This document shows positions 3,490-41,628 of a DNA stretch of 64,000 nucleotides, one piece after another (within the stretch, counting starts at the first letter, position 1; each line of letters starts with the position of its first letter). The translations under genes and the position numbers were made by a program. The notes under the pieces were generated by a model that had not been told where the DNA came from, searched no databases, and saw nothing but the letters and a program-made list of their open reading frames with translations. Source of the DNA: Kribbella pittospori (GTDB lineage Bacteria > Actinomycetota > Actinomycetes > Propionibacteriales > Kribbellaceae); NCBI RefSeq assembly GCF_004331465.1, contig NZ_SJKB01000003.1:1-64000 (forward strand), written 5' to 3'.

Positions 3490-4497
3490 ATGAAGTTCGG
3501 AGTCGAGGCTCCTACCTGCACGGCCGGAATGATGTACCCGACCCCGTTCGCCACCGCGCAGGACGTCGTCCGCGTCGCTGTGGAGGCCGAGCAACTCGGG
3601 TACTACGACGTCGGCGGCAACGATCACCTGAGCACGATGCAGTTCATCCGGGACGCGTGGACCGAGCCGCCGGACTTCTTCGAGCCACTGGTCACGCTCT
3701 CGAACATCGCCGCCCGGACGTCGGTGATCCGGCTGACCACCGGGATCCTGGTGCTGCCGATGCGCGATCCGGTGCTGCTGGCCAAGCAGGTCGCGACGCT
3801 CGACCAGCTCAGCGGTGGCCGGGTGATCCTCGGCGTCGCGGTCGGCGGCTACCGTGACGAGTTCGAGGGCGTCGTACCGGATCTGGCGGACGCACCGCGA
3901 GCCCGGCTGGCGGTCGAGGGCATCGAGTCGCTGCGGGCGCTGTGGACCGAGCGGCGGGCCGGGTACGCCGGGAGGTATCGCCGGTTCGACTCGGTCGAGT
4001 CGTACCCGAAGCCGGTGCAGGATCCGCTGCCGATCTACTCCGGCGGCAATGTGGAGGGCTCGCTGCGCCGGGCGGGGGAGCTGTGTGACGGCTGGCTGCC
4101 GGCCAAGGTCGGTCCGGACAAGATCCGGGCCGGCCGCGAGAAGGTCGACGCGTACGCCCGGGCCGCGGGTCGCGATCCGGCGGCGATCACCACCGCGCTG
4201 CAGTCGGTGGTCTGCCTGGGCGACACTGCGGAGCAGGTGCGTGAGCGGTTCGAGCGTTCCGCCTTCGATCTGTTCCGCCGGTCGTTGCAGACCACGATGA
4301 CCAAGGGCGTCGACCTGGACGCGTACTTCGACGCCAACCTGATCGGTACGCCGGACGAGGTGTGCGCCAAGGTCCAGGCGTACCAGGAGGCCGGGCTGGA
4401 GCACTTCTGTGCGAGCCTCTTCGTCGGCAACACCGTCGACGAGATGCTCGACCAGCTCCGGATGTTCGCGAAGTACGTGATGCCTGCGTTCCAGTAG
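3490..4497 (+). CDS. LLM-class (F420-dependent) oxidoreductase
   Basis: A 335-aa luciferase-like monooxygenase-family TIM barrel. Features typical of the F420-binding branch are the N-terminal MKFGVEAPT strand, the LTTGILVLPMRDPVLLAKQVATLDQLSGGR block (the most conserved segment of this family), YPKPVQDPLPIYSGG, and a C-terminal DEVCAKVQAYQEAGLEHF. The start is ATG 3490 with GAAAGG upstream; the longer open frame from 3433 lacks family similarity. It begins a same-strand array with a giant LuxR regulator (43 bases downstream) and a second LLM paralogue. The substrate cannot be deduced; F420 use is known for the family, not proven here. Confidence 0.85.
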   Translation: MKFGVEAPTCTAGMMYPTPFATAQDVVRVAVEAEQLGYYDVGGNDHLSTMQFIRDAWTEPPDFFEPLVTLSNIAARTSVIRLTTGILVLPMRDPVLLAKQVATLDQLSGGRVILGVAVGGYRDEFEGVVPDLADAPRARLAVEGIESLRALWTERRAGYAGRYRRFDSVESYPKPVQDPLPIYSGGNVEGSLRRAGELCDGWLPAKVGPDKIRAGREKVDAYARAAGRDPAAITTALQSVVCLGDTAEQVRERFERSAFDLFRRSLQTTMTKGVDLDAYFDANLIGTPDEVCAKVQAYQEAGLEHFCASLFVGNTVDEMLDQLRMFAKYVMPAFQ

Positions 4498-4540
4498 CAC
4501 CGGCGTCCACAGCGGGCGGTGGACGCAGTAGCTTGTGGGC

Positions 4541-7303
4541 ATGTTGTTCGGCAGGGAGCCGGAACGGGTCCGGCTCCAGCAGTTGGTCGCCGCCGTTGAG
4601 GACGGCCACCCAGGCCTGCTGGTGGTGCGTGGCGAGGCAGGCTCGGGCAAGTCCACACTGCTCGAGCACGCCGCCTCCTGCTGTGCCGACGACACCCTGA
4701 TCCTGCGGGCGACCGGCGGCGAGAGCGAGGCCGAGCTTCCGTTCGCCGGACTGCACCAGCTGCTTCGCCCACTCCTGTGGCGGACAGGCGATCTCCTGCA
4801 ACCGCAGGCGGACGCCCTGGACAGCGCGTTCGGTACGACGCCTGCCCGCCACGCGGACCGCATGCTCGTGGGACTCGCCGCGCTGACTCTGCTGTCGGAG
4901 GCCGCCGACGAGCATCCGGTGCTGTGCTTGGTCGATGACGCGGACAAGCTCGATCGGCCATCGGTGGACGCACTGTGGTTCGTCGCCGGCCGGCTGCTCG
5001 CGGAGCGGATCGGGCTGCTGATGGCCGCCCGGGACGAGTTTCTGAGCGGCGCACCGGAGCTATGGCTGACCGGTCTGGACGAGGAGGCAGCCACTTCGTT
5101 GCTCCGGGCCCGCAATCCTGAGCTGACCGATGACATGGTCGCGCGAGTGATCGAGGAGACATCCGCCAACCCACTCGCGTTGCGTGAGGTGCCAACCGCG
5201 CTGTCCGCCGCGCAGCGAGCCGGTGTGGAGCCTGTTGTCGGGCCGTTGCCGCTGACTGAGCGGTTGCAGGACATCTTCAGCGCGCGGGTGAGTGAGTTGC
5301 CGGAATCGACGCAGAAGCTGCTCCTGCTCGCAGCCGCCGAGGACAGCGGGGAGCTGGCGGTCATCCTGCGGGCGGCGCGGTTCGGCGGCATCGAGGCGAC
5401 CGGACTGGACGCGGCCGAGGCTGCGGAACTCGTCAGGATCGAGGACGACGTACGCGGTGCGCGGGTGCGGTTCCGGCATCCGCTGGTGCGCGCGGCTGTC
5501 TACCGGTCGGCGACGCAGACTGCACGCTTCGCCGCCCACACGGCACTGGCCGAGGCACTGGACCCTGCTCTCGACCCGGACCGGCGTGCCTGGCAGCTCG
5601 CTGCCGCCGCGCCAAGTCCGGACGACCGGATCGCTGACGAGCTGGATCGCTGCGCAGTGCGAGCCCTCCAGCGGGGTGGACCGTCGACCGCGGCCACCGC
5701 TTACGAGAAGGCTGCCTGGCTGACCGAGTCCGAGGCTGCCCGCGCCCAGCGGCTCGCCTCTGCGGCCGAGGCGGCGGACTCGGCCGGCCATCCGGTGCAG
5801 GCCGTGCGGCTCGCCGACCAGTCCGATCAGCTGACCACCGATCTGGTTGTGCACGCCCGGAATCGTCGTCTACGCGCCAACCTGGCCTTCGACCGGGGAT
5901 CACCGGTGACGGTCCACCGACTCTTGATGACTGACATCGCTGCTGTCGCCGCAGCAGATCCCGATCTGTCCGCTCGGTTGCTGGTCGATGCGGTGAAGAA
6001 CGCTTGGTTCGCCAACGAACGCGAGTGGTCTCGTGAGGCGATCGCTGGGCTGCGCACGCTGCGACTCCCGGAGAACAGTTCGCAGCGGTCCGCGGCGCGG
6101 GTGGTTCTGGAACTGTCGGATCGGCTGGAGGTGATGACCGGCGGGCGGCCGCTCGGGTTGCCGGCGTCGTACGACGTATCGCTCGTGGACGATCGGACGC
6201 CGCTGGAGCTGGTGCTGCGAGGGGGCGCGGATCTGTCGCTCGCCGACGACAGCGGTGCGTTGGGCCGTGCGGAGACGGCGGTCAGGGTCTGCCGGGCCGG
6301 CGGTCAGCTCGCGCTGTTGGTGCTGTCGCTGCAGATCCTCGCGACAGTCGAGACGATCACTGGCAGATACCGGTTCGCGCGGGCCAACGCACGTGAGGGA
6401 CTCGAGCTGGCGACCGCGCTGGGGCAGGACAACCGGTCCTGTCACTTCCAGGCCCTACTGGCCTGGCTGGAAGCCGTTGCTGGCAACGAGGAGTCGTGCC
6501 GGAAGCTGGCTGCTGAAGCACTCGGGCACGCGCGGCTGCAGCGCATCGCCCCGGTGGTCGCACTCGGCCGCTGGGCACTCACCCTGCTCGATCTTGGCCT
6601 GGGGCAACCAGTCCAGGCGCTCGAGCAGGCGACGTACGGCGATGTGGAGGAGTCCGAACATCCGGTGGTTGCGATGCGCCAGAGTCCCGATCTGATCGAG
6701 GCCGCTGCCCGCTGCGGCCGCGCCGCGGAGGTCCGTGAACGACTCGAGCAGCTGGCGTCCTGGGCGGAGGACAACGGCCGACCGTCGGCACTCGCGGTCA
6801 GTCTCCGCTGCCAGGCGTTGCTGGCTGACGACGAGACCGCCGATGACCTGTACGTGAGGGCGCTCGAGCTGCACGACGAGGCCGGCCGCGGTGGTGAGGT
6901 CCGTCCGTTCGACCGGGCGCGCACGCAGCTGCTGTACGGCGAGTGGCTGCGCCGCCAACGCCGGCGTACCGATGCGAGCGCACCACTGCGGGCCGCGGCG
7001 GACACGTTCGACCAACTCGGTGCCGTGCCGTGGAGCCGGCGCGCGAACGGCGAACTGCGCGCGACCGGCATCGGGGGACGGCCGAGTCGATCGATGCCGC
7101 TGGAGACGCTCACGCCGCAGGAGCTGCAGGTGGCCCGGCTGGCCGGTGAAGGCGCGAGCAACCGCGAGATCGGCGCGCAGCTGTTCCTCAGCCCGCGGAC
7201 GGTCGCCTACCACCTGCACAAGATCTTCCGGAAGCTGCACCTGCGGTCCCGGGTCGAGCTGGGTCAGCTGGCCGCCGAGGAGTTCGCGGACGGTCAGCGG
7301 TAA
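4541..7303 (+). CDS. Large LuxR-family transcriptional regulator with AAA-type ATPase domain
   Basis: A 920-aa protein of the LAL/MalT-like class. The N-terminus has a Walker A motif, RGEAGSGKST (residues ~30-39), and a hydrophobic Walker B-like VLCLVDDADKLD. A long helical, TPR-like middle follows. The C-terminus carries a LuxR HTH (LTPQELQVARLAGEGASNREIGAQLFLSPRTVAYHLHKIF...). Such proteins act as ATP-dependent, signal-integrating activators. ATG 4541 is preceded by TAGCTT (4529-4534) with a 6-base gap, the leaderless signature; a GTG at 4535 is the alternative. It is sandwiched between two LLM oxidoreductase genes on the same strand, which are likely targets. Confidence 0.88.
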   Translation: MLFGREPERVRLQQLVAAVEDGHPGLLVVRGEAGSGKSTLLEHAASCCADDTLILRATGGESEAELPFAGLHQLLRPLLWRTGDLLQPQADALDSAFGTTPARHADRMLVGLAALTLLSEAADEHPVLCLVDDADKLDRPSVDALWFVAGRLLAERIGLLMAARDEFLSGAPELWLTGLDEEAATSLLRARNPELTDDMVARVIEETSANPLALREVPTALSAAQRAGVEPVVGPLPLTERLQDIFSARVSELPESTQKLLLLAAAEDSGELAVILRAARFGGIEATGLDAAEAAELVRIEDDVRGARVRFRHPLVRAAVYRSATQTARFAAHTALAEALDPALDPDRRAWQLAAAAPSPDDRIADELDRCAVRALQRGGPSTAATAYEKAAWLTESEAARAQRLASAAEAADSAGHPVQAVRLADQSDQLTTDLVVHARNRRLRANLAFDRGSPVTVHRLLMTDIAAVAAADPDLSARLLVDAVKNAWFANEREWSREAIAGLRTLRLPENSSQRSAARVVLELSDRLEVMTGGRPLGLPASYDVSLVDDRTPLELVLRGGADLSLADDSGALGRAETAVRVCRAGGQLALLVLSLQILATVETITGRYRFARANAREGLELATALGQDNRSCHFQALLAWLEAVAGNEESCRKLAAEALGHARLQRIAPVVALGRWALTLLDLGLGQPVQALEQATYGDVEESEHPVVAMRQSPDLIEAAARCGRAAEVRERLEQLASWAEDNGRPSALAVSLRCQALLADDETADDLYVRALELHDEAGRGGEVRPFDRARTQLLYGEWLRRQRRRTDASAPLRAAADTFDQLGAVPWSRRANGELRATGIGGRPSRSMPLETLTPQELQVARLAGEGASNREIGAQLFLSPRTVAYHLHKIFRKLHLRSRVELGQLAAEEFADGQR

Positions 7304-37450: not shown

Positions 37451-38095
37451 TCAGTGGATGTCGGTGGCGAGGCGGGCGGCCAGGGCGGCGAAGATGCCAG
37501 CACAGACGCGTTCCAGGCGGCGACGGACGGTGCTGCCCGCGCTGAGGAACTTGCTGGTCAGGCCGCCCGCGAGCAGCGCGACCGAGACGTCGACCGGGAA
37601 GCCGACCAGGATGAAGATCGCGCCGAGGATCAGGAACTGGACGGTGGCCGGCCAGGCGCCCGCGCCGGTGCTGATGAACTGCGGGACGAACGCCAGGTAG
37701 AACAGGATGACCTTCGGGTTGGCGAGGTTGGTCAGCGTCGCCATCACATACGTCTTGCGCAGCGTCCGCTGGGGTACCTCGGGCCCGTCCTCGAGCTCAC
37801 CGACGTGCTGTCGGCTGGCCCGCCAGGTCAGGTAGGCCAGGTACAGCAAGAACGCCGCTCCCGCGATCCGTACGCCGTTCAGCACCTGGGGTGCCGCCTG
37901 GATCAACGCGCCGAGCCCCAGTGCCGCTGCCACGGTGTGCCCCACCAGTCCGGACGACATCCCCGCCGCGGCGACCACCCCGGCTCGTCGGCCCCCGACC
38001 GCCGCATTCGCCACCACGAACAGCATGTCCGGGCCCGGTACCACGCTCACCAGGAACACTGCCACCACGAACCCCACGACTACCGAAGTCTCCAT
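37451..38095 (-). CDS. LysE family amino-acid exporter
   Basis: A 214-aa, six-helix RhtB/LysE-type translocator. The N-terminal VVPGPDMLFVVANAAVGGRRAG contains the family's P-G-P-(D/N) helix break, LYLAYLTWRASR ends helix 3, and TNLANPKVILFYLAFVPQF is the most conserved segment. It exports amino acids or derivatives; the substrate is unknown. The start is ATG 38095 with AGGATGGGG upstream; upstream reading in the long frame is non-family. It is probably co-transcribed with the RidA gene. Confidence 0.9.
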   Translation of the reverse strand: METSVVVGFVVAVFLVSVVPGPDMLFVVANAAVGGRRAGVVAAAGMSSGLVGHTVAAALGLGALIQAAPQVLNGVRIAGAAFLLYLAYLTWRASRQHVGELEDGPEVPQRTLRKTYVMATLTNLANPKVILFYLAFVPQFISTGAGAWPATVQFLILGAIFILVGFPVDVSVALLAGGLTSKFLSAGSTVRRRLERVCAGIFAALAARLATDIH

Positions 38096-38154
38096 CGCCC
38101 CATCCTGACCCGGCCTCGCCCAACCCTCACGCGAATTTCCACGTCGTGAAACCG

Positions 38155-40179
38155 TCAGAGAGCGCTCACCCGGATGACGCGGGCGGAGGGCTCGGGAACG
38201 GTGGTCGTGACGGTGAGGGAATCGCCTGACCAGGTGTAGGTCCAGCCGTCGAGGTCTGTGGGGAAGACAGGCGTGATGTCGCCGTGTGGGAGAGAGAACG
38301 TGATCTCGGACGGGCCAGGGCTCCGGTGCCACAGACTCAGATAGGTGGTCGAGGAGTCGCTCAGGCCGAGGGCGATCCACTCGTCATCCCAATCCGGGAG
38401 GCCCAGAGGCCAGCGGGGGAGCAGGTTCGGCAGATCCTCGAGTACGCCGCGGTGCGCGCTGACCGCGGATCGGACCAGCTCCCGCTCGGACTCGCTCATC
38501 TGGTTGAGGTGACCGGACAGATACAGCCGCCCGAGGATGCCGTTGACCAAGGCGAGAGTGAACTCTTCGCGCGTCGTCCCGGTGATCGGATACGCCCAGT
38601 GACCGGCCTGCTCGGGGAGTACGGCGGCCGGCGCGGCAGCCGCGATCGGTATGTAGAGCAAGGGGTGTTGCTGGTCGGACGTCGACTGCAGGTGGAGCCG
38701 CGACAACATCGCGTAGTCCATCCGCATCGCGCCGGACGCGCAGTTCTCGATCAGTAGGTCTGGGTGCCGTGCCTGGACGCCGTCGAGCCAGCTCAGCAGT
38801 GCGCGGTTGTGTTCGAGCAGTCCGTGGCCCAGCGACGTACCACCCTTGTCGGTGCCGGGGCCGGTCATGGTGTTGTTGTCGAACTTGAAGAAACCGATGC
38901 CGAAGTCACCGACCAACCGGTCGACGGTGTCGTCGAGGTGCTGGCGGGCGAGCGGGCTGCGCAGATCCAGGAGGTAGCGGCCGTGTTCGGCGACCCGGAC
39001 GCCCTGGCGGGTGAGGAACGCGTCGTCGGGCAGGCTGCCGGCGATCGGGGAGTCGATACCGATCACCTCTGGCTCCAGCCACAGACCGGGCACCATGCCG
39101 CGCTCGTGGATCCGATCGATCACCTCGCCGAGTCCCTTCGGGAAGCGGGTGATCGACGGCTGCCACGCACCGACGGTGCTCCACCAGTCGCCTTCGGCGT
39201 ACCAGCCGGCGTCGATGCAGAAGTAGTCCGCGCCGGCCTCGGCCGCGGCGTCGATGAGCGGCAGCAGCTTCTCCGTCGTCGGGTCGCCCATCAACGTGTT
39301 CATGTAGTCGTTGAAGATCACCGGCATCCGGTCGTCGGCCGGCCGCCGCATCCGCAGCGCGCGCCGCTGCCGCGTGAGGGCGCCGAAAGCGCCGTCCGAG
39401 TCGGCACCGATTACCAGCGAGACAGGCACGGTGGTGAAGGGCGCGTCCGCGGTCAGCCGCGCGGTCCACTGGTGTTCCTGATCGGTCGGGCCGCTGAGCA
39501 GCAGGTAACCGCCCTGCCGGTTCTCACCTAGTTCGTAGTGCCACGGTCCGTTGTGCTCGATCTGCCATCCCAGCGCGTACTCGCGCTCAACCAGAACGCC
39601 GACCGGCAACGACTCGCCACTCGACCACGAGCCCGTACTCGTCACCGCGTGCCGACCCTTCGCTACCGGGTAGTGCGGATCGCGGACGATCTTCGGGACC
39701 CCGCCCGACCGCAGTGATTGGACCGACCATCGGTTCTCGGCCATCCAGTCGTTGGCGGCCGAATGCAGCTCCCCTTCGACCGACTCGAGACCGACGACCA
39801 GCGACGACAGGAAGGTCAGCACGAGTTCGCCCGGCCCGGTCAGCGACGCCTCGGACCACGCCCGCACGCCGGCTCGCGCCTCGAACACACTGGTGATCCG
39901 CAGACCGGTCCCGGCGTCTTCCTGGACGATGCGCACCGTGGATCCGTCGTCGTGATGATCGACGTACCGCAGGCGCTGGCCGAGGATCGTGTCGACGTGC
40001 CGGTTGGTCCCCGGGGAGCGCCCGTACCCGAGTGCCGAGACCTCGACCAACGCCTGCCCGGGGACCGGGGACTCGGGGGCGGGTGCCCCGATGGCCTGGA
40101 CGGCGATCAGCCGGACCGGACCGTCGTCGAGCGTGAAGGTCAGGGTCAGCTCGGGCGTGCTCCAGCGCAGGAGGTTCAT
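38155..40179 (-). CDS. Alpha-galactosidase, glycoside hydrolase family 36
   Basis: A 674-aa retaining glycosidase. The N-terminal beta-sandwich is followed by a TIM barrel with FNDYMNTLMGDPT, YFCIDAGWYAEGDWW, the nucleophile Asp434 in FFKFDNN, LLIENCASGAMRMDY and the acid/base Asp502 in STSDQQH, then a C-terminal beta-domain. It should remove alpha-1,6-galactose from raffinose-family or galactomannan oligomers. No signal peptide is seen, so it is intracellular. The start ATG 40179 overlaps the EamA stop by 4 bases. A second promoter or operator may lie at 40185-40198 inside the eamA tail. Confidence 0.92.
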   Translation of the reverse strand: MNLLRWSTPELTLTFTLDDGPVRLIAVQAIGAPAPESPVPGQALVEVSALGYGRSPGTNRHVDTILGQRLRYVDHHDDGSTVRIVQEDAGTGLRITSVFEARAGVRAWSEASLTGPGELVLTFLSSLVVGLESVEGELHSAANDWMAENRWSVQSLRSGGVPKIVRDPHYPVAKGRHAVTSTGSWSSGESLPVGVLVEREYALGWQIEHNGPWHYELGENRQGGYLLLSGPTDQEHQWTARLTADAPFTTVPVSLVIGADSDGAFGALTRQRRALRMRRPADDRMPVIFNDYMNTLMGDPTTEKLLPLIDAAAEAGADYFCIDAGWYAEGDWWSTVGAWQPSITRFPKGLGEVIDRIHERGMVPGLWLEPEVIGIDSPIAGSLPDDAFLTRQGVRVAEHGRYLLDLRSPLARQHLDDTVDRLVGDFGIGFFKFDNNTMTGPGTDKGGTSLGHGLLEHNRALLSWLDGVQARHPDLLIENCASGAMRMDYAMLSRLHLQSTSDQQHPLLYIPIAAAAPAAVLPEQAGHWAYPITGTTREEFTLALVNGILGRLYLSGHLNQMSESERELVRSAVSAHRGVLEDLPNLLPRWPLGLPDWDDEWIALGLSDSSTTYLSLWHRSPGPSEITFSLPHGDITPVFPTDLDGWTYTWSGDSLTVTTTVPEPSARVIRVSAL

Positions 40180-41069
40180 CGATAAACCTTAGAAGGTTCC
40201 TCCGTCCGCACTTCAACCCTCGATCCGCGTCGTGGACGACTCAGCGTGATCCCCGCGAGAACCAGCGCCAGCCCGGCCACCTGGCGGAGCGTCAGCGCCT
40301 CACCCGACAACGTCAGCCCGAGCAGTACGCCGGTCACCGGATTGAGCAGCCCGACCAGACCGACCGTCGCGGCACTCAGATGGCGTAAGCCGGTGAACCA
40401 CGCCGTGAACGCAACCGCGGTCGCGATCAGACCGACGTACGCGAACCCGCCGACCGCCGCGAGATCCAGCGCCGGCGGCGCGCCCTCGAAGATGACGGCG
40501 AACGGAATCAGCACGAGACCGCCCGCGATCAACTGCCATGAGGTCGTGGCGAGCGGTCCGTCGGCGCGGCCCCATTTCTTGGCTAGTACGTAGCCGCAGG
40601 ACGACATCGTCATCGCCGCCAGCGACGCGATCACACCCCGTACGTCGACTGCCGTCGTACCCGCGCCGAGCATCAGACAGACGCCCGTGAGGCCGGCCGC
40701 GGCGCCGACCAGCACCGGCATGGTCGGCCGCTCGGACAACAGGCCCCAGGCGAACAGCGTCATCGCGAGCGGCGACGCGGACATGATCGTCGACGCGAGG
40801 CTGACCGGCAGCAGTTGTGATGCGAGGTAGATCAGGGCGAAGAACGCGCCCATGTTGCAGACGCCGAGCAGTAGCGAGCGCCACCACCAGACGCCGCGGG
40901 GGAGGCGGCGTGCCAGGCAAAGGAGCAGCAATCCAGCGGGCAGGGCCCGGAACACCGCGCCGTACAAGGGCGATCCGGCCGGCAGGTACTCGTGGGTGAC
41001 GAAGTAGTTCGTGCCCCACGCCACCGGCGCGATCGCGGTGATCAGCACCCACCGCAAAGTATTTTCCAC
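40176..41069 (-). CDS. EamA/DMT family transporter
   Basis: A 297-aa permease with ten predicted helices in two EamA repeats (AWGTNYFVTHEYLPAGSPLYGAVFRALPAG... and ...LIATAVAFTAWFTGLRHLSAATVGLVGLLNPVTGVLLG). It exports or imports small metabolites; the substrate is unknown. I chose GTG 41069: on the minus strand TATAGT (41077-41082) is followed by 7 bases and then GTG, a mirror image of the marR start. The in-frame GTG at 41078 lies inside the palindrome. It forms an operon with the alpha-galactosidase (ATGA overlap). Confidence 0.87.
   Translation of the reverse strand: MENTLRWVLITAIAPVAWGTNYFVTHEYLPAGSPLYGAVFRALPAGLLLLCLARRLPRGVWWWRSLLLGVCNMGAFFALIYLASQLLPVSLASTIMSASPLAMTLFAWGLLSERPTMPVLVGAAAGLTGVCLMLGAGTTAVDVRGVIASLAAMTMSSCGYVLAKKWGRADGPLATTSWQLIAGGLVLIPFAVIFEGAPPALDLAAVGGFAYVGLIATAVAFTAWFTGLRHLSAATVGLVGLLNPVTGVLLGLTLSGEALTLRQVAGLALVLAGITLSRPRRGSRVEVRTEEPSKVYR
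40185..40198. promoter_or_regulatory. Perfect palindrome in the eamA tail just before the alpha-galactosidase start
   Basis: AACCTT-AG-AAGGTT is an exact 6+6 palindrome, 5 bases upstream of the alpha-galactosidase ATG on the minus strand and still inside the eamA coding end (codons for EPSKV). It could be an internal operator or promoter allowing separate control of the glycosidase, or chance. Confidence 0.35.
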
Positions 41070-41076
41070 GGAAGGC

Positions 41077-41102
41077 ACTATATCTTCCCGGGAAGATATA
41101 GT
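41077..41102. promoter_or_regulatory. Perfect 26-bp palindrome: MarR operator with two mirror-image promoters
   Basis: Two 13-base arms, ACTATATCTTCCC and its exact reverse complement GGGAAGATATAGT, meet without spacer. Each outer end contains TATAGT, a -10 box, on its own strand: 41097-41102 for marR and 41077-41082 (minus strand) for eamA. Each -10 is followed by exactly 7 bases and a GTG start (41110 and 41069). One dimer bound here would cover both -10 elements and stop both leaderless transcripts. Confidence 0.88.
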
Positions 41103-41109
41103 CGTCCGT

Positions 41110-41628
41110 GTGACCGAAGACCACGTGGCCAGGATCCAGGCGGAGTGGCGGGCCGTCCGGCCGGATCTCGACGTCGCGCCGCAGGGCGTGATCGGCCGGC
41201 TGCACCGGATCGCGAATCATCTGACCGGCGAGCTGACGCTGCTCTATGCGAAGTACGGCCTGACCGAGGGGGAGTTCGACGTCCTCGCGGCGCTGCGGCG
41301 TGCGGGAGCGCCGTACGAGCGGGCGCCGGGCGAGATCGCGCTGCACACGATGGTGACGACCGGCGCGGTCACGAAGCGGGTCGATCGCCTGGAGGAGGCC
41401 GGTCTGGTCCATCGTCGGCGCAGCGATGCGGATGGCCGCGGTCGCGTCGTACGGCTGACTCCGGCCGGCCGGAGGCTGATCGACAAGGCGTTCGCCGCCC
41501 ACATGACGAACGAACGGCGGCTGCTCGGCTCTCTCAGTCCGGCGCAGGCGGATCAGCTGGAGGAACTGCTCACGACGTGGCTCGCCGACCTCGAGCCGCC
41601 GGGGGATACTCGAGCCGTCAGCGAGTGA
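41110..41628 (+). CDS. MarR family transcriptional regulator
   Basis: A 172-aa winged-helix regulator: IGRLHRIANHLTGELTLLYAKYGLTEGEFDVLAALRRAG, then the recognition region TMVTTGAVTKRVDRLEEAGLVHRRRSDADGRGRVVRLTPAGRRLID, the family hallmark. It should bind the adjacent 26-bp palindrome as a dimer and repress itself and the divergent eamA-alpha-galactosidase operon until a ligand releases it. GTG 41110 is 7 bases after TATAGT. The ligand is unknown. Confidence 0.92.
   Translation: MTEDHVARIQAEWRAVRPDLDVAPQGVIGRLHRIANHLTGELTLLYAKYGLTEGEFDVLAALRRAGAPYERAPGEIALHTMVTTGAVTKRVDRLEEAGLVHRRRSDADGRGRVVRLTPAGRRLIDKAFAAHMTNERRLLGSLSPAQADQLEELLTTWLADLEPPGDTRAVSE

Follow-up and report, generated by a model that had tools for sequence, protein, structure and literature searches.

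PecS-PecM systems combine a MarR regulator carrying a tryptophan in its N-terminal helix, a divergently encoded EamA/DMT transporter, and two or more palindromic sites of the form TATCTT..AAGATA (PMC6391409, PMC12288460). Those of Dickeya, Agrobacterium fabrum, Vibrio vulnificus, Klebsiella, Pectobacterium, and Streptomyces coelicolor (SCO2647/SCO2646) are the closest known systems to the locus described here. Binding to two or three sites is documented for PecS proteins of other organisms (PMC6391409, PMC12288460); in A. fabrum, PecS occupies two overlapping sites that span the pecM promoter and the start of the coding sequence (PMC12288460). In Streptomyces, PecS has been reported as paired with a further MarR regulator, TamR (PMC6391409), whose ligands are citrate and trans-aconitate (PMC5487221).

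We analyzed a 64,000-nt stretch of Kribbella pittospori DNA (hereafter, the window), in which marR and eamA genes diverge from a gap of only 40 bp, compared with 96 bp in A. fabrum and about 200 bp in Vibrio. Unlike PecS-PecM systems elsewhere, both promoters appear leaderless and one predicted operator (op1) is common to the two -10 boxes. A second predicted operator (op2) is centred on the start codon of eamA, 21 bp from op1, whereas 57 bp separate the site centres of Vibrio PecS. The urate-responsive MarR protein HucR of Deinococcus also has its site in a divergent intergenic region but differs in its partner, uricase, and in having a single site (PMC5487221).

Features of the marR-eamA locus in the window. 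Strand is given where it applies.
Feature	Position	Strand	Description
marR	41110-41628	+	PecS-like MarR repressor (predicted), 172 aa
eamA	40176-41069	-	PecM-like DMT/EamA transporter (predicted), 297 aa, two EamA domains
Melibiase gene	38155-40179	-	GH36-like alpha-galactosidase / beta-L-arabinopyranosidase; ATGA overlap with eamA
op1 (operator 1)	41081-41098		predicted 18-bp PecS-type core TATCTTCC-CG-GGAAGATA, axis 41089/41090
Perfect palindrome, 26 bp	41077-41102		in each arm, the outermost 4 bp form part of the -10 box and lie outside the conserved operator
op2 (operator 2)	41060-41077		predicted, TATTTTCC-AC-GGAAGGCA, axis 41068/41069, centre on the eamA start codon
-10 box TATAGT of marR	41097-41102	+	followed by 7 nt (CGTCCGT), then GTG at 41110
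-10 box TATAGT of eamA	41077-41082	-	followed by 7 nt (GCCTTCC), then GTG at 41069

The marR-eamA pair is a PecS-PecM-type divergon by sequence

The MarR protein matched the Pfam model MarR_2 (53.5 bits), and no NCBIfam equivalog model scored above its cut-off for this protein. Its W13, in the N-terminal helix, is invariant in 15 orthologs and lines up with the Trp in the solved structures of two homologues (8ylf/8ylh). Three further residues, D57, R90, and R102, are likewise invariant in orthologs and align with HucR positions 73, 106, and 118, which we take to be the urate-binding residues of that protein. The eamA product contains two EamA stretches (128.5 bits). Because an N-terminal Trp helix is combined with a divergent partner of two EamA domains, we assign the pair to the actinomycete PecS-PecM-type divergons, a known kind of arrangement that the first-pass annotation of this DNA had overlooked along with op2. 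The pair recurs, again divergent, on a Klebsiella aerogenes plasmid (45% and 35% identity), where two TATCTT-type sites lie in the intergenic DNA. All 12 of the 12 outer bases of op1 are common to the Vibrio PecS site TATCTTTATATTAAGATA (TATCTT..AAGATA; PMC6391409), and op2 is a weaker match.

The same genome encodes a second MarR protein, 49% identical (L119, 3315-3812, minus strand), divergent from a homologue of trans-aconitate 2-methyltransferase (3925-4698, plus strand), and this neighbour marks the paralog as TamR-like. TamR is thus the closest paralog class, with a partner gene that differs from eamA.

For comparison, we aligned 92 divergons from about 14 actinomycete genera on the operator axis. 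They comprise 27 from Kribbella (the marR orthologs found in 38 genomes of the genus, window included) and 65 from further named relatives in Streptomyces, Actinomadura, Amycolatopsis, Kutzneria, Cellulomonas, Sanguibacter, Nakamurella, and others; with 27 Kribbella and 46 Streptomyces divergons among the 92, the conservation counts below are not phylogenetically independent. Among named organisms, the regulators most similar to that of the window come from Kribbella (K. capetownensis, 96%). By tblastn, 79 of 80 contigs had an EamA relative beside the MarR gene and divergent from it.

The alpha-galactosidase gene, which the first-pass annotation had counted as part of the switch, would share the eamA transcript via the ATGA overlap, but it lies downstream of eamA in just 6 of 15 named Kribbella and never in the 65 divergons of other genera. 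By this distribution it is a lineage-specific passenger of the presumed eamA transcript, outside the core switch. An ORF for a LysE-type exporter (window 37451-38263, minus strand) begins close to, or within, the end of the glycosidase gene, possibly extending that transcript.

MarR proteins 68-71% identical to that of the window are encoded on at least 15 Streptomyces plasmids, L162 among them. In the one examined, the EamA gene is again divergent and both operators are present, which raises the possibility that the divergon moves horizontally.

Operator 1 is conserved together with the regulator gene

The first-pass annotation had described a perfect, spacerless 26-bp palindrome with TATAGT in both arms, each followed by seven bases and GTG, and this is correct to the base. 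A repeat finder returned arms at 41077-41089 and 41090-41102, each of 13 nt and 100% complementary, with no spacer. The arm ACTATATCTTCCC, for which a genome search had been proposed, occurs nowhere else in the 9.49-Mb genome. Only two perfect 26-bp palindromes were found in 844 kb sampled from the K. pittospori genome, window included, and the other is GC-rich; first-order random sequence contained none of that length in five runs.

The full 26-bp palindrome is present in just 10 of the 27 Kribbella divergons. Across all 92, the conserved unit on the operator axis is TANCTTCC-NN-GGAAGNTA, in which the CTTCC..GGAAG arms are invariant or almost so on both sides, while the central pair is free, and so is position 7 of either half-site (numbered from the axis). 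Judging from this alignment, the unit under conservation is the inner 18-bp core and not the 26-bp palindrome. A perfect inverted repeat of 26 bp could in principle fold as a hairpin or cruciform, and the palindrome would then work as RNA, for example as a terminator, or as extruded DNA instead of as a protein site. We give this almost no credence, since with leaderless starts the palindrome would be transcribed in neither direction, and since its conservation, with the free central pair and free position 7, is like that of a protein site.

The exact motif TANCTTCCNNGGAAGNTA occurred as one copy per genome in 26 of the 27 Kribbella genomes with the MarR gene; in the 27th it differs by one base. 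The 11 Kribbella genomes without an ortholog have no copy. A reversed-pattern control gave zero matches in every Kribbella genome scanned. The presence of the motif only with the MarR gene across Kribbella ties motif and regulator together. A regulon search of the K. pittospori genome returned, beyond op1 and op2, two weak matches with two mismatches each; this is fewer than the reversed-pattern control gave, and we therefore do not claim a wider regulon.

Both -10 boxes coincide with the operator ends

A TANNNT box lies 6-8 nt upstream of the marR start in 89 of 92 divergons, upstream of the eamA start in 80, and upstream of both in 79, including all 27 of Kribbella. As a rule, the terminal TA of the operator, read outward, forms the first two bases of this box. 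The spacing from box to start is kept while the intervening bases vary and the box itself changes or shifts, as in loci L022, L026, and L029, which have TATGCT on the marR side. No -35 box was recognisable on either the marR or the eamA side. Spacing of this kind is a published signature of leaderless genes, which are common in actinomycetes (PMC3160421); in S. coelicolor, 21% of primary transcription starts are leaderless (PMC4895711). From this geometry, marR and eamA are both probably leaderless, and the view of the first-pass annotation, that a common MarR-type operator covers the -10 boxes of two such genes, is borne out across the divergons at the level of sequence.

The layout in the window is also symmetric. 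Both starts lie 20 bp from the op1 axis, and each GTG has the first T of TATAGT 13 bp upstream. We scanned the 844 kb, window included, on both strands for mirrored TANNNT, 6-7 nt, and RTG before two ORFs of at least 90 aa, with the -10 boxes no more than about 30 bp apart; this was the sole such place. The complete symmetry claimed at first holds for the starts and boxes, but as a description it is incomplete, given op2 on the eamA side. Nor does the mirror arrangement seem a special design: it follows from the palindromic operator, whose ends double as -10 boxes. The two starts are exactly equidistant from the axis in 53 of the 92 divergons (in Kribbella, 19 of 27); symmetry is frequent across the divergons and not strictly kept.

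A predicted second operator lies on the eamA start codon

Op2 is present in 91 of the 92 divergons. Its axis is 21 bp from that of op1 in 83 of the 91 two-site divergons, among them the window, where this equals two helical turns, and 20-23 bp in the remainder. The dyad falls within the eamA start codon; Streptomyces typically has TAGCTTCC-AT-GGAAGCTA, with ATG in the middle. The window copy has two mismatches to the consensus and may therefore be a weak site.

Codon usage at the beginning of eamA points to conservation of the operator. Codon 2 is GAA in 90 of 91 cases, against a background of 29% of Glu codons. At codon 3, GCT outnumbers GCC by 43 to 5 (background GCT, 3.5% of Ala codons) and GAT outnumbers GAC by 17 to 2 (background GAT, 20%); the otherwise rare GCT, AAT, and GAT at this position all fit op2. 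Such biased synonymous choices at codons 2 and 3 indicate that the DNA, and not the protein sequence, is being kept.

We considered whether TTCC-ATG-GAAG at the eamA start is no operator but a signal for leaderless translation initiation, as it is placed exactly over the start codon, and leaderless mRNAs depend on that codon and nearby bases. However, TTCC precedes the eamA start in 88 of 92 divergons and the marR start, which is leaderless by the same spacing, in just 7 of 92, which argues against a general leaderless or start signal, and the element is a palindrome built of the half-sites of op1. This explanation is very improbable.

A single-site switch, the arrangement envisaged in the first-pass annotation, would have op1 alone bound, one dimer silencing both promoters equally, and op2 as a chance resemblance. 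Op1 by itself overlaps both -10 boxes, op2 of the window is two mismatches from consensus, and a divergon of Saccharothrix has no op2, all of which would suit it. We nevertheless judge it unlikely in view of the near-universal presence of op2 at fixed spacing, the rare codons that preserve it at the eamA start, and the two or three sites bound by PecS proteins elsewhere. The exception, Saccharothrix obliqua (L102), keeps the eamA start and the -10 spacing and represents a natural single-site version.

In a few relatives a third site covers the marR start, and the layout is almost fully mirrored. The extremes are Streptomyces sp. TSRI0281 (L064) and S. rugosispiralis (L088), perfect over 27 bp on each side; in the former, a perfect palindrome of 54 bp (about 5940-6000) holds three operators at 21-bp spacing, and both ATGs lie on the outer dyads. 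A candidate remnant of a third operator on the marR side of the window was dropped, the match being the start codon alone.

Model for regulation by op1 and op2

We consider it very likely, from sequence comparison, that the locus is a two-operator switch of the PecS-PecM type, in which MarR dimers would occupy op1 and op2 at leaderless promoters and be released by a ligand. One dimer would most likely bind op1, over both -10 boxes, and repress its own gene as well as eamA. A second dimer, most likely on op2, would lie on the same side of the helix at a distance of two turns, perhaps bind cooperatively, and repress eamA further, an effect that would extend here to the overlapping glycosidase gene. 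If eamA is leaderless, the centre of op2 would also be its transcription start. The sites of A. fabrum PecS, which reach into pecM, provide a precedent for multiple sites over the pecM start.

The ligand would free the protein and open both genes. Going by relatives, it is probably a purine (urate, xanthine) or another metabolite; the TamR paralog class answers to citrate, not urate. Two polymerases would hardly fit together on the 40-bp gap, and some mutual exclusion is expected even without the repressor. Bacterial bidirectional promoters (Warman et al. 2021, cited in PMC12825309) too have a symmetric sequence that drives divergent transcription, and RNA polymerases can compete on them; they use one -10 element common to both directions, whereas the window has two separate -10 boxes, at the ends of the operator.

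Implications for PecS-type regulation

By this comparison, the layout is unusually compact and deeply conserved, within the known PecS-PecM kind. We see an even chance that the actinomycete form of PecS-PecM has been condensed to a lattice of repressor sites phased by 21 bp, with start codons on the dyads and -10 boxes at the ends, fully mirrored in some species such as Streptomyces sp. TSRI0281 with its three sites. If this is true, one stretch of DNA would serve the repressor, RNA polymerase, and the leaderless ribosome together. For PecS-type regulation in Kribbella, Streptomyces, and their relatives, the divergon provides a cis-code that is exact and can be tested. It is also a clean example from nature of an operator, a -10 box, a likely transcription start, and a start codon lying on top of one another. 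Conservation of an operator on the start codon suggests that the opening codons of a protein are dictated by regulatory DNA, and it opens the question of how a repressor dimer acts when centred on +1 of a leaderless gene.
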